DNA of 61,296 nt, from positions 1 to 61,296 of the IMG/VR virus record IMGVR_UViG_3300046836_000468, one strand, 5' to 3'. A program made the position numbers and the translations under genes. Shown piece by piece: positions 3,247-61,296 of the stretch. How positions within the stretch are numbered: the first letter of the stretch is position 1; the number at the start of each line of letters is the position of its first letter. Origin of the DNA: a virus. The notes beneath the pieces were generated by a model. That model worked only from the letters and a program-made list of their open reading frames with translations, was not told the origin of the DNA and ran no database searches.

Positions 3247-5264
3247 GCATCGAGGCGACCGCAAAAATCACACTAATCGGCGCGAGCGAAGCTCTTAAAT
3301 CGCTGCAGGGTGTGACGCGCGAGACGGGCGCCGCGGGCAAGGCCGCCAAGAGCGCAGCGGACACGCAGGCCGCAGCGGCCAAGAAAGCCGCCGCTGCGCA
3401 GGAGGCTGCAGCCAAGAAGGCTGCGCAGGCGCAAGAGGCCGCTGCCAAGAAGGCTGCAGACGCGTCTATCAAAGAGGGTGAGCGCTGGGCCAAGGCTGCG
3501 CAGCAGAGCGCGATGGTGCGCATGCGCGCGCAGGAAAAAGAAGCCCAGGCCGCCAAGCGGATACAGGAAGAGGCCGCACGCGTTGCAGCGCGCGAGCTCG
3601 CCAAGGTTACGGAGGCAGCTGCGCGCGAGGCAGCTAAGCAGAAGCGCCTCGCCGAGAAGACTGCGGCAGCCGAGGCCAAGGCCAGGCGCGAGACGCTACG
3701 CCAGGTCGGCGGGCTGATGGTCACGGCAGGGTCGGGCCTCGCGGCCGGCATCGGCGTTGCGGTCTCGACGGCGCGCGGCGGGAGCAAGTCGGTGCAGGAG
3801 CGCATCGCGGCCGGCAATGAGTTTCGCGAGCGGCTGTTCAGCGTCACGGGCGCAGCGGGCCAGACCGCCGAGCAGCGCGAAGCCACGCAGGGCAAGATCA
3901 TCGAGGCGAGCAAGGCAACGGGCAAAGACCAGAGCGAGCTGCTCGGCGTCGTCGAGACGGGGCACGCGCAGTTTGGCGACCTGCAGTTCTTCGCGGACAA
4001 CATCAAGGAGATTGCGACCATCGCGAAGGTCGCCAACGCGGACACGGGCGAGTTCGCCAAGGCGATCGGCTCGGTCAAGCAAGCGTTCAACCTGACAGGC
4101 GAGGAGGCCATCCAGGCCGGCTACCTCATGAGCGCGTCTGCAGACAAGGGCTCGGTCGAGCTCAAGGACTTCGCGCGCGACTTCGCGGCGAGCGCGGGCA
4201 TCTTCTCGATGAACACCGGGCAAAAGGGCATCGGGGGCGTGCGCCAGTTCTTGGGCGCCTCGCAGGGCATCGCGACCGGACAGTTCGGTTCGGCCGAGAG
4301 CGCCACGCGGCTCGAGCGCTTCATCACGGACGTCAACGACGTCAAGGTGCGCAAGGAGCTCAAGGGCATCGGCATCAGCAACGTCGCCGACGCGAGCGGC
4401 AAGGTCGACGTCGGCAGGCTGCTCGACCAGCTCGGCAACAACAGCAAGTTCAAGAGCGCCGCGACGCGGCAAAAGGTCTTCACCGAGACGCGGTCGCTGC
4501 AGGCGGTCGAGTCGCTGCTCGCTGCGCGCGAGCGCGAGAAGACGGGCGGCGTCGGCTTCAAGACCATCGCGGGCGTGAGCGAGGAGGCGGGGCGCGCAGC
4601 GATCAGCGGGGGCTTCGCGTCGCTCTCCCAGGAGGGTTTCTTCAAGAACCAGGTCGCGGCCGCCGAGATGCAGGCCGACACGATGAGCCACCTGGACGAG
4701 ATGAACACGCAGCTCGGCGCCGTCAGTGGCGCAGCGGACACGCTCGAGAAGAGCTTCGGCGCGCTGTCCATCTGGGCGAGCAGCATCGCCGCGATGGGCG
4801 TGACGTCGGTCTTGTCCGCTGCCATCCAGGGCAAGCTGTTCGGCGGCGCAGCGGCAGAGTCGGGCGGGCTGCTGGGCAAGGCGGCCGGCGCAGTCGGCGG
4901 CGCGGCAGGCGCGTCGGCGAGCGCGCTCAGCGCGACCGCAGCGGCGGGCGGGCTCGCAGGCGGCGCCGTGATGGCAGGCGGGGCGCTCGTCGCAGGCGCG
5001 GCCGGCTACGCGCTCGGCGAGGGCATCAACGCGGGGACAAGCGCCCTGCGCGACGACAAGCAGAGCCTGAGCGACCTGCTCGCGGGCGTGCTCGAGCAGC
5101 TCGCGAGCGGCGGCCTGGGCGACGCCAAGAGCCGCATCGGCGCGACCATCGTCAACTCGGACGGCGGCTCGCGCACGATCGTGGCCGAGCTCAAGGAGAT
5201 CAACGCAGGGCTGAAAGCAGCAGCAGCCAAGCCAACGGCCGGCGCGCCGAGGGAGCCGCGCTGA
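3243..5264 (+). CDS. tail tape measure protein
   Basis: This 673-aa protein sets tail length and plugs the tube. Residues ~30-150 are an Ala/Lys/Glu coiled coil (repeats of AAKKAAAAQE). The middle has a phage tape-measure core (ASKATGKDQSELLGVVETG ... AGYLMSASADKGSVELKDF). Residues ~515-600 are a Gly/Ala-rich hydrophobic stretch likely to insert in membrane. By the usual ~1.5 angstrom per residue, a tail near 100 nm is expected. The GTG start overlaps the frameshifted chaperone stop and the end overlaps the next ATG. Confidence 0.88.
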   Translation: MSIEATAKITLIGASEALKSLQGVTRETGAAGKAAKSAADTQAAAAKKAAAAQEAAAKKAAQAQEAAAKKAADASIKEGERWAKAAQQSAMVRMRAQEKEAQAAKRIQEEAARVAARELAKVTEAAAREAAKQKRLAEKTAAAEAKARRETLRQVGGLMVTAGSGLAAGIGVAVSTARGGSKSVQERIAAGNEFRERLFSVTGAAGQTAEQREATQGKIIEASKATGKDQSELLGVVETGHAQFGDLQFFADNIKEIATIAKVANADTGEFAKAIGSVKQAFNLTGEEAIQAGYLMSASADKGSVELKDFARDFAASAGIFSMNTGQKGIGGVRQFLGASQGIATGQFGSAESATRLERFITDVNDVKVRKELKGIGISNVADASGKVDVGRLLDQLGNNSKFKSAATRQKVFTETRSLQAVESLLAAREREKTGGVGFKTIAGVSEEAGRAAISGGFASLSQEGFFKNQVAAAEMQADTMSHLDEMNTQLGAVSGAADTLEKSFGALSIWASSIAAMGVTSVLSAAIQGKLFGGAAAESGGLLGKAAGAVGGAAGASASALSATAAAGGLAGGAVMAGGALVAGAAGYALGEGINAGTSALRDDKQSLSDLLAGVLEQLASGGLGDAKSRIGATIVNSDGGSRTIVAELKEINAGLKAAAAKPTAGAPREPR

Positions 5265-29912: not shown

Positions 29913-30695
29913 ATGATCATCGTGAGCGGCGGACAGAAGGGCGGCACGGGCAAGACGATGCTCGCGACCATGCTCGCGGTCCTGTTCAAATGGATGGGGC
30001 TCGACGTCCTGCTCGTCGACGCCGACCCGTCGCAGGGCTCGAGCAGCGAGTGGGCCAACGAGCGACGCGCAGCGCGCGAGGCCGCGCGCAAGATGGGGGT
30101 CGAGACGCCTATCCCGCACGTCCCGTGCGTGACGCTCGCCGGCATCGTCTACGACGAGCTGCGCGACCTCGAGCGACGCTACGACGTCATCGTCGTCGAC
30201 TGCGGCGGCGCCGAGAGCGAGGAGTTCACCTCGGCCTGCCTCGCAGCAGTCGCTGTTTACACGACCATCCTGCCGAGCGCGTGCGACCTCAAGACCATTC
30301 CCAAGGTCGAGAAGGCCATCAAGCTCTCGCGCGCGGGCGGCAATCGCGAGCTCGTTGCCAAGGTCATCCTCAACCAGTGCTCGAACAACCGGCATGCGAC
30401 CGACAAGCAACGCGCTCGCGAGAAGCTCGCGCAGTACCCGGCGCTCGTCGTCTCTGATCGCTCGATCAACTTCCGCGAGAGCTTCATGGACGCCTACGGA
30501 GAGTGGCTGTCCGTCAACGAGCTCGCCGTCCACGGCTCTAAAGAAGCGCGCAACAAAGCGCGCAAGGCAGCAGCCGAAGCCTGGGCAGTATTCGAGGAAG
30601 TCTGCGCCGACGTGGAGATCCCAGTACACGAGGTACTTGCTGTACCCGGTGTACACGCGGTACACGACGTACACGATGTACAGGAGGTACAGTGA
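29913..30695 (+). CDS. parA: ParA-type partition ATPase
   Basis: The 260-aa protein has the deviant Walker A QKGGTGKT with the signature lysine (residues 8-15), switch motif VLLVDADPSQGSSSEW (33-48) and Walker B YDVIVVDCGG (~90-99). No N-terminal HTH, so it is the small plasmid type, usually paired with an RHH centromere-binding protein. The last ~24 residues are an odd V-H-D-V-H repeat, encoded by the second GTAC array and probably dispensable for catalysis. Ribosome site GAGGGG overlaps the end of array 1. Confidence 0.88.
   Translation: MIIVSGGQKGGTGKTMLATMLAVLFKWMGLDVLLVDADPSQGSSSEWANERRAAREAARKMGVETPIPHVPCVTLAGIVYDELRDLERRYDVIVVDCGGAESEEFTSACLAAVAVYTTILPSACDLKTIPKVEKAIKLSRAGGNRELVAKVILNQCSNNRHATDKQRAREKLAQYPALVVSDRSINFRESFMDAYGEWLSVNELAVHGSKEARNKARKAAAEAWAVFEEVCADVEIPVHEVLAVPGVHAVHDVHDVQEVQ
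30624..30690 (+). repeat. 9-bp-phased GTAC array, copy 2, inside parA
   Basis: GTAC recurs at 30624, 30633, 30642, 30651, 30660, 30669, 30678 and 30687, eight copies at an exact 9-base step. The step equals three codons, so every GTA is read as Val and the parA C-terminus becomes a V..V..V.. tail. The final unit contains the AGGAGG ribosome site of the RHH gene. This looks like a DNA site that has been accommodated in a coding frame. Confidence 0.85.
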
Positions 30696-43749: not shown

Positions 43750-44780
43750 GGGACTATGCGCAGGTCAGGCCGACGCTGTGGACCGGCGAGACCGGGCGCC
43801 TACTGCGCGGCAACGCCAACGCGCAGCGCGTGCAGTTCTATCTGCTCACGTGCTCGAGCAGCAACATGGCGGGGCTGTTCTACCTGCCCCTTCCCCTGCT
43901 CTGCCACGACCTCGGGATGCCCTTGGAAGGGGCTCTCGAGGGGCTTCGGAGCCTTTCCGAGGTCGACTTCGCGGTCTACGACGAGCCGACTTCGTACGTC
44001 TGGGTGCTCAACGCAGCGCGCGAGAGCGTCGGGAGCAATCCGAGCCACGCCGACAACCGCGTGCTCGGCATCAGGCGGGAGCTCGAGCGCCACGCCAAGT
44101 GCCCGTTCTACGACGCGTTCGTCGAACGCTACGCAGCCCTGTTTGAGGACAGGCCCGCCCCGGTCGTGCAGGCCAAAACAAGAGCCCGTCCCAAGCCCCT
44201 TCAAAGGGGGTCACAAGGGAGTGCCAATTCAGGATCAGGATCAGGATCAGGATCAGGATCAGGATCAGGAGCAGAATTAAGAGAGAGCGCGGGCGCGCTC
44301 TCCCCGCATGCGCGCGCGCGCTTGACGGCTTCGCCTCCCGAGGAGAGCGAGACCCGGAGCCCAGACGAGACCGAGACCCTGACCGCGACGCAGCTGCGCG
44401 GGCTGTTCCGCTCGACCTGGATGCGCGCCGACCGCGCCGACCCGCCCATGCCTGCCGAGGACAAGCTCGCCGAGCTCGCCGAGCGCGTGACCGACACGGC
44501 GGCGCAGCGGCGCGTCGCGCCGGCCGAGCTGCTCACCACCACGCTCGAGCGCTGGGCGAAGGGCGAGCGCAATGCGCGCGAGCTGCGCGCCCCGGTGCAG
44601 TGCTTTGCGCAGGCGTTCGGCGAGGTGCTCGACCAGACCGAGGGCGGCGTGCCGCGCTTGTCGCCGACCGACGCGCTCTCACGCAAGGGCATGGAGGCGA
44701 TGCGTGCGGGCGACTTCGACCGCTACGACGCCATCCAGGCGGAGCTGCGCGCGCTCAACGGCGGAGGCTCGCATGCGTGA
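43746..44780 (+). CDS. phage replication protein (initiator/helicase-loader type)
   Basis: The 344-aa protein opens RDYAQVRPTLWTGETGRLLRG, with VQFYLLTCSSSNMAGLFYLPLPLLCHDLG and SEVDFAVYDEPTSYVWVLNAARE, the usual N-terminal domain of phage replisome-organiser proteins. A Gly-Ser hinge encoded by a GGATCA microsatellite (residues ~163-175) separates it from a C-terminal helical domain (TQLRGLFRSTWMRADRAD). It would bind the phage origin and load host helicase. Confidence 0.7.
   Translation: MRDYAQVRPTLWTGETGRLLRGNANAQRVQFYLLTCSSSNMAGLFYLPLPLLCHDLGMPLEGALEGLRSLSEVDFAVYDEPTSYVWVLNAARESVGSNPSHADNRVLGIRRELERHAKCPFYDAFVERYAALFEDRPAPVVQAKTRARPKPLQRGSQGSANSGSGSGSGSGSGSGAELRESAGALSPHARARLTASPPEESETRSPDETETLTATQLRGLFRSTWMRADRADPPMPAEDKLAELAERVTDTAAQRRVAPAELLTTTLERWAKGERNARELRAPVQCFAQAFGEVLDQTEGGVPRLSPTDALSRKGMEAMRAGDFDRYDAIQAELRALNGGGSHA
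44232..44267 (+). repeat. GGATCA hexanucleotide microsatellite, six copies
   Basis: Six perfect copies of GGATCA in the reading frame encode a Gly-Ser linker. The hexamer can change copy number by slippage without altering the frame, so linker length may vary among phage isolates. Each unit also contains GATC. Confidence 0.9.
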
Positions 44781-47999: not shown

Positions 48000-48400
48000 G
48001 CAAGAACCTCTACAACGAAGACCTGCGCGCGCGCGTCTGCCAGCTCATCCAGGCAGGCATCGACGAGCTCGATGCCTTCGGCGTCGAAGGCATCTCGCGC
48101 ACGACGTACTTTCGGTGGAAGGCCGAGGGCAAGGAAGGCGTCGAGCCGTACGCGTCGCTCTGGGTCGACGTCGAGCAGGCGGCGTCCAAGCGCAACACGA
48201 CGCTCACGTTCTGGGCGATGCGCGCCGCGAAGGCCGGCAACATCGAGGCGATCTTCAAGCAGCTGCGCGCGCACCGACCTGACCTGTACAACGACAAGCA
48301 GCGCCTCGAGCTGAGCGGCCCCAATGGCGGCCCCATCACGGCGGGCATTCGCTACGTCGTGCACGTACCCGAGGACGAACCCGAGGAGCAGGACCCATGA
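47996..48400 (+). CDS. terminase small subunit-like protein
   Basis: The 134-aa protein has an N-terminal HTH (VCQLIQAGIDELDAFGVEGISRTTYFRWK) and the common terminase-small pattern TLTFWAMRAAKAGNIEAIFKQLRAHRPDLYNDKQRLE, and lies upstream of the large subunit with one small gene between. It should recognise the packaging site. Confidence 0.72.
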   Translation: MSKNLYNEDLRARVCQLIQAGIDELDAFGVEGISRTTYFRWKAEGKEGVEPYASLWVDVEQAASKRNTTLTFWAMRAAKAGNIEAIFKQLRAHRPDLYNDKQRLELSGPNGGPITAGIRYVVHVPEDEPEEQDP

Positions 48401-48546
48401 TCAATCTACGCAACGTGCTGGTCGTCCTGCTGCTGCTCGTGCTGCTCGCGCACTTCTGGCACGGCGGCATCCCGCTTGCGTTCAGCGGCTCGCTCGGGTT
48501 TCTGCTCTTGCTGCTGCTCATCCTGGTGCTGGTCGGCGCGCTGTGA
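48397..48546 (+). CDS. 49-aa two-helix membrane protein between terminase genes
   Basis: The product has two long Leu/Val helices around HFWHGGIPLAFSGS (residues ~6-18 and 34-49). It resembles DUF3309-type small membrane proteins. Overlaps TerS (ATGA) and TerL (GTGA). Location between terminase subunits is unusual; a holin is a possibility, unsupported by charge pattern. Confidence 0.55.
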   Translation: MINLRNVLVVLLLLVLLAHFWHGGIPLAFSGSLGFLLLLLLILVLVGAL

Positions 48547-49937
48547 CCAGCGAGGCCACCGTCGAGGAGGTGCACGTTCGACCCAACGCGGGGCCGCAGA
48601 GCGCGGCTATTGCGTCGTCGGCGGACATCACTTTGACGGGTGGGGCAGCCGGGGGAGGCAAGACCTGGTCAACGCTGTTTCGCTTCGGTCTGCACGCTGC
48701 GCGCTATCCGAAATACTACGGCGCGATCTTCCGGCGCGAGATGCCGCAGGTCACGATGGGCGGCGGCATCTGGGAAGAGTCGATGAGCCTCTACCCGATG
48801 TGGTCTGCTCGTCCGAACTTCTCGACGCACGAGTGGCGCTTCCCCGAGACGCGCTCGCTCATCCAGCTGCGCGGTCTGCAGCACGCCAAGGACGTCATCG
48901 ACTACGCAGGCGCGCAGTTCGCGGAGTTCGCGTTCGAGGAGGCGACTCTCTTTGAAGAGCGCCAGTTCTGGTTTCTCTACTCGCGCCTGCGCTCGCAGTG
49001 CGGCATGAGGCCGCGCGCCTTCCTGACGTGCAACCCCGACCCCGACAGCTGGGTCGCCAGGATGGTCGCGTGGTGGATCGGCGAGGACGGCTACGCCATC
49101 GCGGCGCGCGCAGGCGTCAAGAGGTACTTCGTGCGCGACGGCGATGACCTCGTCTGGGGCGACACGGCAGACGAGGTGCGTGACCGCGCCGCGCACGTGC
49201 TGCGCCGACCGCGCGCGACCCGTCCGCAGAGCTTCCGCTTCATCCCTGCGATGCTGGCCGATAACCCCAAGGGCGACCCCGACTACGAGACCAAGCTCAT
49301 GGCGCTGTCGCTCGTCGAGCGCATGCGTCTGCTCGGCGGCAACTGGAAGATACGCGCAGCCGCAGGCACCGTGTTCAAGCGCGTGTGGTTCGAGATCATC
49401 GACCGGCTGCCGAGCGACGTCATCGCGACGAGCCGCGGCTGGGACCTTGCGGCGACGCAGCCAAGCACCGACAACAAAGAGCCGGACTGGACGCGCGGCG
49501 TCAAGATGTCGCGGCACGCGTCGGGGCTGTTCGTCGTGCAGGACGTCAAGAGCCTGCGCGACCGCCCCTACGCCGTCGAGCAGCTGGTGCACAGGACGAC
49601 CCGCGAGGACGGCAGGCACTGTCGCCAAGCGCTGTGGCAGGACCCTGGCGGCGCCGGCAAGAGCGAGGCGCAGCGCTTCCTGCGCGAGCTCGCCGGCTGG
49701 GACGTGCGCATCGTCGCTGCAGCCGAGGATAAGCTCACGTACGCCAAGCCCGTCAGCGCGCAGGCCGAGGGCGGCAACATGAAGCTTCTGCGCGGCGACT
49801 GGAACGAGAGCTACCTCAACGAGCTCGAGGCGTTCCCTGACGGCGCCAAGAAAGACCAGGTCGACGCGACGAGCCGCGCGTTCATCGACCTGACCACGAG
49901 CGTCACGCCGACGCCCTTCTACGTGCCCGGACTCTAG
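48543..49937 (+). CDS. terL: terminase large subunit
   Basis: The 464-aa motor-nuclease has Walker A TGGAAGGGKTWS (32-43), Walker B FAEFAFEEAT, coupling motif FLTCNPDP, and a RNase H-like nuclease with GWDLAAT and a distal DQVDATS. This is the terminase_6-type organisation used in headful or cos packaging. The GTG start overlaps the 49-aa gene; the longer open frame upstream is not used. Confidence 0.9.
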   Translation: MTSEATVEEVHVRPNAGPQSAAIASSADITLTGGAAGGGKTWSTLFRFGLHAARYPKYYGAIFRREMPQVTMGGGIWEESMSLYPMWSARPNFSTHEWRFPETRSLIQLRGLQHAKDVIDYAGAQFAEFAFEEATLFEERQFWFLYSRLRSQCGMRPRAFLTCNPDPDSWVARMVAWWIGEDGYAIAARAGVKRYFVRDGDDLVWGDTADEVRDRAAHVLRRPRATRPQSFRFIPAMLADNPKGDPDYETKLMALSLVERMRLLGGNWKIRAAAGTVFKRVWFEIIDRLPSDVIATSRGWDLAATQPSTDNKEPDWTRGVKMSRHASGLFVVQDVKSLRDRPYAVEQLVHRTTREDGRHCRQALWQDPGGAGKSEAQRFLRELAGWDVRIVAAAEDKLTYAKPVSAQAEGGNMKLLRGDWNESYLNELEAFPDGAKKDQVDATSRAFIDLTTSVTPTPFYVPGL

Positions 49938-52479: not shown

Positions 52480-52982
52480 CGATGACCGACACCGTAGACG
52501 CAGACTTCGACCAGCTCGACCACGCGCTGCTCAGCGGGCAGCTCACCACCGACCGGCTCGCCGCGCTGCAGCCGCGCACGCAGTGGACGCGCATCGAGAC
52601 GCACCCCGAGATACTCGCGCAGCCGTACGTCGTCGCGCTCGGCACGTACCTCGAGCCGCGCAAGGACGGCCTACGCGTCATCGTCACGCTCGACCTGGCG
52701 TCCGACGTGGGCGCGGGCGACTGGCTGCACCTGAGCGTCTCGCGCGAGCGCAGGCTGCCGACCTGGGGCGACCTCGTCTCGACGCGCGACATGCTCGGCT
52801 ACGAGGAGCTGTACTTTCTGCAGCAGCTGCCGCCGCGCAGGTACTGGCTCAACGTGCACCCGTACTGCCTGCACCTCTTGCACAGGCTCGACCAGGACGC
52901 TGTGCCGCGTCTGCTCTGGGAGGGGCAGGAGGGCGGCGACGGATCGAACTACCAGCACAGCAAAACAAGGACAAGGCCATGA
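52476..52982 (+). CDS. DUF7694-like conserved phage protein
   Basis: The 168-aa product has GDWLHLSVSRERRLPTWGDLV, YEELYFLQQLPPRRYWLNVHPYCLHLLH, the conserved blocks of a common phage protein of unknown function with several His/Tyr residues. It overlaps the RAMP-like gene start, so it could belong to the same transcript. Two ATGs at the start are possible. Confidence 0.65.
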   Translation: MTMTDTVDADFDQLDHALLSGQLTTDRLAALQPRTQWTRIETHPEILAQPYVVALGTYLEPRKDGLRVIVTLDLASDVGAGDWLHLSVSRERRLPTWGDLVSTRDMLGYEELYFLQQLPPRRYWLNVHPYCLHLLHRLDQDAVPRLLWEGQEGGDGSNYQHSKTRTRP

Positions 52983-53542
52983 AGACATACCGAGCAAAGA
53001 TCAAGAGCAAGTCGCCCTACTCTCAGTCTCGTTATCACCAGACCGAGCACCTCGACAAAGAGGGCGACGACGCCTACGAGCGACGAACGTGGCGCGAGCG
53101 CATGCACTACGACGAGAACGGCGAGGTGTTCATCCCGCCGATGAGCCTGAAGAACTGCCTGGCTGAGGCCGCGAAGTTTCTGAGCGTGTCGATCAAGGGC
53201 AAGGGCAAGGCGACGTACACGAAGCACTTCGAGGCTGGCATCATGGTGACGACACCGATCAGCCTCGGCATCAAGGTGCAAGACGTGCCAGTCGAGGCGC
53301 TGTTTGTGCCGAGTAACGGCAGGCGCGGAGGAAGCACTCGCGTCACCCGGTACTTCGGACGCATCCCCAAGTGGTCGGGCGAGTTCGAAATCAACGTGCT
53401 CGACGAGACCATCACCAAGGACGTTCTCGAGCTGCACCTGTGCGAGGCCGGCAGCTTGATCGGCATCGGGCGCTTTCGCCCGCGCAACAACGGCTACTAC
53501 GGTCGCTTCGCTGTCGAGTCGCTAGAGGAGGTGGTGTCATGA
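52979..53542 (+). CDS. RAMP/Cas7-like protein
   Basis: The 187-aa protein begins with a beta strand and a long loop, then IPPMSLKNCLAEAAKFLS (52-69), resembling the IPGSSLKGALR helix of RAMP (Cas7/Csm3/Csf2) proteins. It also has the basic KGKGKATYTKH (73-83), a NGRRGG loop (113-118), and a beta-alpha-beta end closing in the Gly/Arg-rich IGIGRFRPRNNGYYGRF (161-177), like a RAMP G-loop. Reading is by motif style; I know the family as a widespread unnamed phage protein. GC is lower than flanking structural genes. It is followed by a small partner gene and pentamer arrays. Confidence 0.55.
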   Translation: MKTYRAKIKSKSPYSQSRYHQTEHLDKEGDDAYERRTWRERMHYDENGEVFIPPMSLKNCLAEAAKFLSVSIKGKGKATYTKHFEAGIMVTTPISLGIKVQDVPVEALFVPSNGRRGGSTRVTRYFGRIPKWSGEFEINVLDETITKDVLELHLCEAGSLIGIGRFRPRNNGYYGRFAVESLEEVVS

Positions 53543-54051
53543 GCGGGAGCTCTGCCGCACGACGCGTGGCGCTGCTGTCCGAGCCGACTCAGAAGGTGCT
53601 GGAGCGCATGCGGACAGCTGCGGTCGGAGACATGGTGCCATGGGAAGAACTCGAGGCGATCACCGGTCGACCACGTGACGCTGTGCGAGACATGGCGCGC
53701 ACAGCGTCGAAGCGGCTGCAGAACGACGAGAAGATGCACTTCCGCACCTGCATAGCGGTAGGCGTAGAGCGCATCCCATTCACGACTGTCGCGCGCGAGG
53801 AGCTGCCTACGCAGCGTAAGCGCATCGGCGCAGCAGCAGGCCGTATGTTGCGCACAACGGAGAACGTCATCCTCGATGGCATGAGTCGAGACGACTGCGA
53901 CCAGGTATTGCTCCACCAAGCGATTGCTGGTGTGACGCAGATAGCGTGCTCGAACGAGGGGCTCAGACGCCTACGCGCAAGCACTAGCGCTCTCGCGACA
54001 GTCCCACCGTTCTCTCCGAGAGAAGCCGCAGAGATGCTCTTCTCTGAGTGA
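53539..54051 (+). CDS. helical partner of the RAMP-like protein (HTH-like)
   Basis: The ATG overlaps the RAMP-like stop; 170 aa. Residues ~25-75 look like a winged or plain HTH (GDMVPWEELEAITGRPRDAVRDMARTASKRLQ) followed by beta residues and a helical C-terminus (FSPREAAEMLFSE). The coupling to the RAMP-like gene implies one function. It could bind RNA or DNA of the downstream arrays. Family not named; lower GC like its partner. Confidence 0.55.
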   Translation: MSGSSAARRVALLSEPTQKVLERMRTAAVGDMVPWEELEAITGRPRDAVRDMARTASKRLQNDEKMHFRTCIAVGVERIPFTTVAREELPTQRKRIGAAAGRMLRTTENVILDGMSRDDCDQVLLHQAIAGVTQIACSNEGLRRLRASTSALATVPPFSPREAAEMLFSE

Positions 54052-54060
54052 GCGCAGCAT

Positions 54061-54100
54061 GGATTGACTCGGTTTGGCTGGGCAGGGCAGGACGTGGACG
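54061..54100 (+). repeat. pentamer array 1, 8 units (GRNNN)
   Basis: Eight consecutive pentamers begin with G then a purine: GGATT, GACTC, GGTTT, GGCTG and so on. An 11-base interruption (CAGCATCGCTT) follows, after which the phase resumes shifted by one base in array 2. The last three positions of each unit vary. Confidence 0.68.
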
Positions 54101-54111
54101 CAGCATCGCTT

Positions 54112-54161
54112 GGCGTGGCTAGGCTCGACTCGGCAGGGCAAGACAAGACAAGGGCAGTACC
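54112..54161 (+). repeat. pentamer array 2, 8 units (GRCNN) plus 3' motif
   Basis: Eight exact GRCNN pentamers from 54112 (GGCGT, GGCTA, GGCTC, GACTC ...) end in GGGCAGTACC. Its 3' 24 bases (54138-54161) recur at 54268-54291 with one mismatch. Only the last two positions of each unit are free. Confidence 0.85.
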
Positions 54162-54173
54162 CAAAAGTTTTCG

Positions 54174-54187
54174 CGCTCGCGCGAGCG
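54174..54187 (+). repeat. perfect 14-bp palindrome between arrays
   Basis: CGCTCGC is followed directly by its complement GCGAGCG, preceded by AAAAGTTTTCG. As RNA it would fold to a GC hairpin between arrays 2 and 3. It could separate, process or terminate array transcripts. No experimental role is known. Confidence 0.6.
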
Positions 54188-54200
54188 GGTGTGTTTCGGT

Positions 54201-54291
54201 GACAGGGCAACTCAGGGGCATTGCAAGACGGGACGCGGCATGGCGGGACTCAGCAACGCCGGGCTCAGCAAGACAAGGCAAGGGCAGTACC
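54201..54291 (+). repeat. pentamer array 3, 13 phased units plus 3' motif
   Basis: After GACAG GGCAA and a one-base slip, 13 successive units from 54217 have a purine at position 2 and C at position 3 without exception (GGCAT, TGCAA, GACGG, GACGC ...). The array finishes in GGGCAGTACC, the same end as array 2. The strict phase over 65 bases cannot come from coding, because 5 is not a multiple of 3. Confidence 0.85.
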
Positions 54292-54322
54292 TAAGCAGCG
54301 AGCAGGCTCGGGAGGGCAGACC

Positions 54323-58676: not shown

Positions 58677-59567
58677 ATGGGACTAGCGCTAGACGACGTG
58701 CCGTATGAGCCGGCGACCGAGTACACCGATCGCTGGGTGTTCGCGCTCAGCGACACGCTCGAGGGCGAGCACGGCGGCACGTTCTTCGAGGCAGGCGTAG
58801 CGACGCGCCCGGTCGACGTGCGCGGCCTGCGCAAGTTCATCTGCGCGCACATCGTGCTCGGCGCGCTGCGCGTCGAGGGCGCGCCGCTCGAGCTCGGCGA
58901 CACCAGCAAGCTCGTGGGCGATGGCGGCGAGGAGGGCGAGGGCGAGGGCGAGGGCGAGACCGACCCGAACGCGCCCACGGGCGGCACGCTGCCCGCCATC
59001 CCTGGCATCGACAACGCGCTGCCGGGGGAACAGCCCGGCATCGACAACACGCTGCCGCCCGAAGTGCCGCCCATCGGCACGACGCTGCCGACGCGCCCTG
59101 GCGTCGACAACGAGCTGCCAGGCGAGCAGCCCGGCATCGACAACGAGCTCCCGCCTGAGCGTCCGCCCATCGGCGCGACGCTGCCCGAGGGGCCCGGTCC
59201 TGACAACACGCTGCCCAGGCCAGAGCTGCCTGACGAGCTGCCGCCTGTCGGCGTGACGCTGCCTGAGCGCCCCGAGGGCGGCACGCTGCCGTCCATTCCC
59301 GAGGCTGGGCAGGAGCTGCCCGACCCCGAGCCCATCCCGGACAACGAGCTGCCAGGCGAGCGCCCGCCCGTAGGCGCGACGCTGCCGACGCGCCCCGGCA
59401 TCGACAACGAGCTGCCGCCCGAGCCCGATCCTGCGCCCGAGCTCGAGCGCCTGCGCGAGCAGGAGCGCGCCCGCGAGCGCGAGCGTCGGCGCGAGCACGA
59501 GAAGCCCGTCCCGCCGCCCCACACGCCCAGCTGGAGCGAGAAGCTCAAGGGCAAGAAGGGCAAGTGA
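58677..59567 (+). CDS. head/decoration protein with proline-rich repeat tail
   Basis: The 296-aa product has an ~85-residue N-terminal domain (VPYEPATEYTDRWVFALSDTLEGEHGGTFFE in parts), an EGEGEGEG acidic hinge, then 5-6 repeats like the gene at the junction: IGTTLPTRPGVDNELPGEQP and IGATLPEGPGPDNTLP. It ends Arg/Lys-rich (RERERRREHEKP). The repeats differ in number from the junction gene. A decoration protein is guessed from its position after the major capsid gene. Confidence 0.65.
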   Translation: MGLALDDVPYEPATEYTDRWVFALSDTLEGEHGGTFFEAGVATRPVDVRGLRKFICAHIVLGALRVEGAPLELGDTSKLVGDGGEEGEGEGEGETDPNAPTGGTLPAIPGIDNALPGEQPGIDNTLPPEVPPIGTTLPTRPGVDNELPGEQPGIDNELPPERPPIGATLPEGPGPDNTLPRPELPDELPPVGVTLPERPEGGTLPSIPEAGQELPDPEPIPDNELPGERPPVGATLPTRPGIDNELPPEPDPAPELERLREQERARERERRREHEKPVPPPHTPSWSEKLKGKKGK

Positions 59568-61073: not shown

Positions 61074-61296
61074 TACGCTCAGAGTCCGCGCCGTCGAAGG
61101 GCGCTTGCTGCAGTGGGAGGGCGACGCGCATCGCGGCTACGTCGGCTGGTCGACTGCGCCTGCGGGCGCGGCGTACGACCACGAGATTGACGGCGTCGTG
61201 AAGCTGGCGATGAGCGAGGCGCCCGTCGACGTGCCCAACACGATCTACTACCGCAAGGCGCTGTCGTGCGGCGACCTCGACGACGCGACGGGCGAG
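61066..61296 (+). CDS. neck/tail-completion protein, DUF2635-like (5' part)
   Basis: First 77 residues of the 295-aa protein whose remainder is at 1-784. It begins MADTLRVRAVEGRLLQWEG and the DUF2635-like end VDVPNTIYYRKALSCGD falls in the duplicated terminal 127 bases. Sits immediately upstream of the sheath gene after circularisation. Confidence 0.75.
   Translation, partial: MADTLRVRAVEGRLLQWEGDAHRGYVGWSTAPAGAAYDHEIDGVVKLAMSEAPVDVPNTIYYRKALSCGDLDDATGE
61170..61296. repeat. terminal direct repeat, right copy
   Basis: Identical to bases 1-127 (see left copy). Annotated here so the overlap is removed before length or gene counts are taken. Confidence 0.93.

Follow-up and report, generated by a model that had tools for sequence, protein, structure and literature searches.

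A Probable VIPR Locus of the vap1 Kind in an Environmental Phage Genome

The DNA analysed here (the window; 61,296 nucleotides, positions 1 to 61,296 of IMG/VR virus record IMGVR_UViG_3300046836_000468) very probably encodes a phage-borne VIPR system of the vap1 (type II-like) kind, most likely one that blocks the genes of competing phages. VIPR was described in a 2026 preprint (PMC13142463), according to which the system consists of Vipr, Vap, and vrRNAs in which GGY, or a related consensus, alternates with NN. The arrays comprise approximately 9–16 pentamers with hypervariable NN and have an invariable structured 3′ tail. When the ribonucleoprotein binds dsDNA it skips 1 nt between the paired dinucleotides, in most cases the wobble position, and it represses the transcription of competing phages and satellites (PMC13142463). 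In its sequence features the window matches this description, having a RAMP homologue, an adjoining vap gene, pentamer arrays, and a 3′ tail. The accessory gene that marks type II, vap1, is also present and points to VIPR type II. The locus is a divergent new member of VIPR, not a new kind of system. A sequence-only reading of the same DNA, which had guessed that a RAMP-like protein, its partner, and the arrays beside them could form one system, was essentially right.

Genome and Setting of the Cassette

An identical 127-bp direct repeat occurs at both ends of the record (1–127 and 61170–61296), which makes it probable that the contig represents an entire phage genome, either circularly permuted or circularised. 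The cassette has a Terminase_6 gene (48324–49937) and a portal-like gene upstream and head genes on the other side. From the end of the partner gene to position 54322 the DNA is non-coding. The lower GC content that had been ascribed to the cassette is confirmed: vipr, the partner gene, and the arrays have 60.5, 62.6, and 63.6% GC, respectively, i.e., 60–64% vs. 68–70% in the flanks. A sigma-70-like promoter was looked for and none was seen, which counts against the VIPR reading. No nuclease-type partner was detected.

Several other repeats were observed in the window. At 158–755 and 58932–59220, near both record ends, two different genes contain related coding regions made up of proline-rich tandem repeats (PGIDNELPxExPPIGxTLP; repeat units of about 33/66/96 bases). 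A near-perfect TCAGGA hexamer repeat of 7.7 copies is found at 44229–44274, and a tandem repeat of the 9-base unit GTACACGAG in about 7.6 copies at 30624–30691.

Vipr and Its Partner Protein

The vipr gene (52979–53542, plus strand) codes for a predicted RAMP/Cas7-fold RNA-binding protein of 187 aa, as judged from an AlphaFold2 model, Foldseek, and a PDB sequence match. The model, built with 31 relatives as input, has a pLDDT of 90.9, and its best fold matches in the PDB were Cas7/Csm3 subunits, with an E-value of 6e-7 for a type VII Cas7 and TM values of up to 0.63 for Csm complexes. Searched by sequence, the protein and its family profile each match a single PDB entry, 36pp (‘SUSP1 Vipr protein’), with E-values of 2.5e-6 for the single sequence and 9.3e-10 for the profile. 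Similarly, the A1 profile finds SUSP1 Vipr with an E-value of 3e-13 and the LESphi2 homologue with an E-value of 6e-18. The assignment to RAMP/Cas7, originally made by reading motifs, is therefore borne out by the confidence of the model, the Cas7/Csm3 fold matches, and the sequence match to the solved SUSP1 Vipr; the structure prediction that had been proposed as a check returned a Cas7-like fold. Near the C-terminus the protein carries a conserved glycine-rich loop, GIGRFRPRNNGYYGRF. It falls in PHROG 4652, a family of unknown function, and searches of Pfam and PADLOC with this protein and its 170-aa partner gave zero matches.

The partner gene (53539–54051, plus strand) adjoins vipr, the previously noticed overlap of the two genes amounting to 4 bases, and its 170-aa product is a homologue of the accessory protein Vap1. 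A profile of the partner family built without SUSP1 finds SUSP1 vap1 (ALH47068.1) with an E-value of 8e-9, and the LESphi2 gene too. The AlphaFold2 model of the partner has a pLDDT of 92.3. Its Foldseek matches are weak and fall on winged-helix (wHTH) regulators, and the N-terminus bears a weak sequence likeness to the DNA-binding part of alkylguanine transferases. A winged-helix-like N-terminus followed by helices is predicted, so that the earlier description as a helical partner holds for the helices and is now replaced by a named homology and a more specific fold for the N-terminus.

The Arrays of the Window

The strongest 5-phased 60-base windows of the entire 61 kb are 54094–54153 (4.16 bits) and 54224–54283 (3.99 bits), while the 5-phase score across the genome has a median of 0.97 and a 99.9th percentile of 2.91 bits. 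For the region 54052–54320 period 5 gives a z of 6.1, periods 3, 4, 6, and 7 give values of about 0 or below, and none of 1000 dinucleotide-preserving shuffles reaches the period-5 score. The existence of 5-base-phased non-coding arrays after the gene pair is thereby upheld. Their number had been put at three; there are two, each capped by AAGGGCAGTACC, and a one-base slip splits array 1 in appearance.

Segmentation with the scaffold of the clade resolves both arrays, on the plus strand, into units in which two free bases come after a fixed G(G/A)C. The information content of the fixed positions is 0.86, 1.13, and 2.0 bits, and that of the NN positions 0.22 and 0.03 bits. Array 1 (54056–54151) consists of 9 units up to 54095, an inserted base at 54096 that shifts the phase, and 11 units at 54097–54151 (20 in total). 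Array 2 (54201–54281) has 3 units, a similar insertion at 54216, and 13 in-phase units at 54217–54281 (16 in total). The final three dinucleotides are AA, and AAGGGCAGTACC follows. In the 3′ tail of array 1 (54150–54200) this motif is succeeded by AAGTTTT, a hairpin (54172–54193), and a T-rich stretch, a terminator-like arrangement, whereas the tail motif of array 2 (54280–54293) has no strong hairpin after it. The AAGGGCAGTACC tail also follows the arrays of the relatives L002 and L040, and AAGTTTT with hairpin and T-rich stretch recurs after several of them, the stem sequence differing between copies; only the last array lacks such a hairpin. TRF misses the arrays, whose identity is reduced by the variable dinucleotides, and no Rfam family was matched.

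Linkage of Genes and Arrays in Relatives

A single scan of viral contigs yielded 41 relatives with 49–81% identity. Of 40 usable loci, 39 have their strongest 5-phased window no more than 1.5 kb from vipr, the sole exception being L028, which is cut at the start of the gene. The search for 5-phased DNA also recovers the SUSP1 vrRNAs. Every locus with arrays shows a fixed triplet and a variable NN, and the partner family adjoins vipr in nearly all loci. Homologues regularly lacking arrays, or arrays without the genes, had been named as the finding that would speak against a single system; instead, the gene pair and the arrays occur together. Six further relatives were found in bacterial MAGs or genomes. 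Among these observations are vipr relatives in Methylococcaceae (L052), Geobacteraceae (L047), and the cyanobacterium Iningainema tapete (L051), with the scaffolds CAC, GAC, and CTC, respectively.

Reading of the Code

The variable dinucleotides in this clade resemble codon positions 1 and 2, this being the best frame in 36 of 64 arrays (z = 5.2 vs. pair permutation), and the signal is abolished if the two letters of NN are swapped. A constant frame along the array beats rotating frames, with 108 vs. 62 and 46 bits, although this may partly reflect composition. Redealing NN among the arrays of one locus leaves a weak frame signal with a z of 1.5, and the evidence from codon positions accordingly lends support without deciding the matter.

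The arrays were also read as degenerate peptides against an ORF set, and two of them, chosen as the top scorers among 130 arrays read in two orientations, each stand out beyond 2000 order shuffles; since they were so selected, the test at the DNA level matters. Array 1 of L029/L050 (CGC scaffold; L029 3589–3696, equal to L050 10589–10696) reads FRPRNNGYYGRFE, which is the glycine-rich loop of Vipr. Against vipr of L009 and L003 it matches 25 of 26 bases at skip 1, where shuffled arrays reach 18, and skips 0 and 2–5 give 15–18 bases, i.e., noise. In seven genomes and records it has matches with three or fewer mismatches only in four vipr genes; an exact vipr target is absent from 385 genomes of the same class. 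For L031, whose array has a GGT scaffold, the reading is EYRLYRRDE(K/N)G, a C-terminal motif of its adjoining terminase; the array matches the terminase of EBPR podovirus 1 at 26 of 32 bases at skip 1, with shuffles at 21 or below and other skips at noise. The coordinates in L031 are 2889–2966 and about 2672–2720 for this array that, read at skip 1, spells a motif found in its own adjoining terminase. Two arrays of relatives with different scaffolds thus decode only with a 1-nt skip.

Other target searches were negative. The exact 1-nt-skip patterns of array 2 of the window gave zero matches in viral and genome contigs, as did those of the L040 and L017 arrays. The matches found for array 1 of the window (16 fixed bases) were due to chance, the flanking dinucleotides being unmatched, and so were those of L012, which did not extend to flanking dinucleotides. 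A control scan with SUSP1 returned chance matches only and no true target in the same collection. As the scans demanded exact matches and the control failed too, the absence of targets says little. Comparison of the array-derived peptides with phages, Pfam, and PHROGs gave no match apart from a single weak one (E-value of 2). A search for self-targets by DNA match in the first loci fetched found none above shuffled controls, and the apparent matches of the L010 and L016 arrays to their own locus are too weak to claim.

Scaffold Drift and Possible Self-Sparing

The vipr of the L029 carrier itself matches at 9 of 13 dinucleotides, below the vipr of other phages, and the terL of L031 matches at 7 of 16 vs. 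11 of 16 in the copy of another phage. Most of the mismatches to the own gene within the motif are AGR vs. CGN arginine or TTR vs. CTN leucine codons. These two arrays suggest that carriers may spare their own gene via synonymous codons. As the reader skips the wobble, synonymous genes can be distinguished only at six-codon amino acids.

The scaffold triplets among the relatives are GGC, CGC, GTT, GTC, GAC, GGT, AGT, AAT, CTC, and CAC, the third base always being C or T. At least 15 scaffold changes are required on the Vipr tree, and sister pairs differ, e.g., L003 (GTC) and L016 (GTT). Such drift may be partly known already, in view of the ‘related consensus’ mentioned in the preprint text (PMC13142463). 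We tentatively propose, giving it somewhat less than an even chance, that the scaffold is a fast-changing lineage-specific code that could bar Vipr from loading the guides of a competitor, and that phages target conserved motifs which they carry themselves (the vipr G-loop, terminase), sparing their own copy via the other Arg/Leu/Ser codon family.

Proposed Mechanism and Alternative Explanations

Transcription, assembly of the ribonucleoprotein, dsDNA binding, and repression would be expected in the window by analogy with SUSP1 (PMC13142463). The arrays would be transcribed into vrRNAs roughly 100 nt long, along which the subunits of Vipr would oligomerise, gripping each GRC triplet and leaving the two variable bases accessible. 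These dinucleotides could pair with dsDNA with one target base skipped between them, in coding targets the wobble position, so most synonymous changes would give the target no escape. Lacking a nuclease, the complex would block transcription of the bound gene with the help of Vap1, and this gene would most likely belong to a competing phage, prophage, or satellite. The sequence-only reading had proposed the array transcript as the ligand of the RAMP-like protein and had left its function open. The transcript is probably the ligand of Vipr, as shown for the homologue of SUSP1, where vrRNA co-purifies with Vipr (PMC13142463), and the data favour RNA-guided DNA binding over a filament-forming or packaging-related function.

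It is conceivable, though unlikely, that the locus has lost its function, the genes being intact and the guides decaying and no longer targeting. The one-base slip in both arrays, the low information of scaffold position 1, and the failure to find a target for the window arrays would fit. The arrays of the window are also more degenerate (GRC) than most, and one or both could have undergone partial decay; this and the missing target weigh against the preferred reading. However, both ORFs are intact and conserved, and two members of the same clade, L002 and L040, have retained arrays in which the NN are new and the tails unchanged. A one-base slip like those of the window is present in an L002 array too (4191–4291), so such slips may be tolerated or may be a feature, marking overlapping guides instead of decay.

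The position of the cassette between terminase/portal and head genes could suggest a packaging or structural RNA, a phased transcript coated by the RAMP-like protein in head assembly or genome packaging. This is very improbable, since the LESphi2 homologue is near cI and sigma factor genes, the ODay homologue among tail genes, and the SUSP1 homologue away from head and tail genes; moreover, NN is hypervariable and two arrays decode to the genes of other phages. An equally slight chance is given to a CRISPR-derived class 1 effector pairing contiguously with an RNA target. The Cas7/Csm3-like fold would agree with it, but none of the repeats, spacers, or further cas genes of a CRISPR system were seen in the cassette, neither protein matched Pfam or PADLOC, and the 25 of 26 bases matched at skip 1 drop to noise at skip 0.

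With the preferred reading as a VIPR system, a large and divergent set of environmental phages joins a system whose first description dates from 2026, and the noncontiguous code has been tested on sequences whose scaffolds depart from GGY. Two rules are suggested, namely that scaffold triplets diverge between lineages and that six-codon amino acids allow self to be spared. Should this hold, phages would be attacking the terminase and guide systems of one another at hard-to-mutate motifs.

Comparison with Known Systems

TIGR-Tas systems are, as VIPR, phage-associated and RNA-guided with non-CRISPR arrays; unlike the window, they use Nop-domain proteins and contiguous short guides and are not known to have a RAMP protein. 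With Cas7 of class 1 CRISPR systems (Csm3, type VII Cas7) the window shares the RRM/RAMP fold, and its arrays have a short fixed period that resembles the regular short spacing with which Cas7 subunits grip RNA. Unlike class 1 CRISPR, it has no spacers, repeats, or other Cas proteins, and has a 5-base scaffold with putative gapped dinucleotide pairing to DNA.

The VIPR-like locus of LESphi2 (Pseudomonas aeruginosa) likewise has vipr (25% identity) followed by a gene of the vap1 family, with GGC/NN arrays. In contrast to the window, these arrays are upstream of vipr, in a temperate-phage regulatory context. SUSP1, an Escherichia phage with VIPR type II (vipr ALH47069.1, vap1 ALH47068.1, PDB 36pp), differs from the window in that the overall identity of Vipr is only about 26%, the scaffold is GGT vs. 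GRC, the tail is a pseudoknot vs. GGGCAGTACC plus hairpin, and its arrays are not confined to the downstream side as they are in the window. The two loci are alike in their homologous Vipr and Vap1, the same gene order, the phage-borne location without a detected nuclease-type partner, and phased fixed-triplet/NN arrays that adjoin the genes and end in a 3′ tail.
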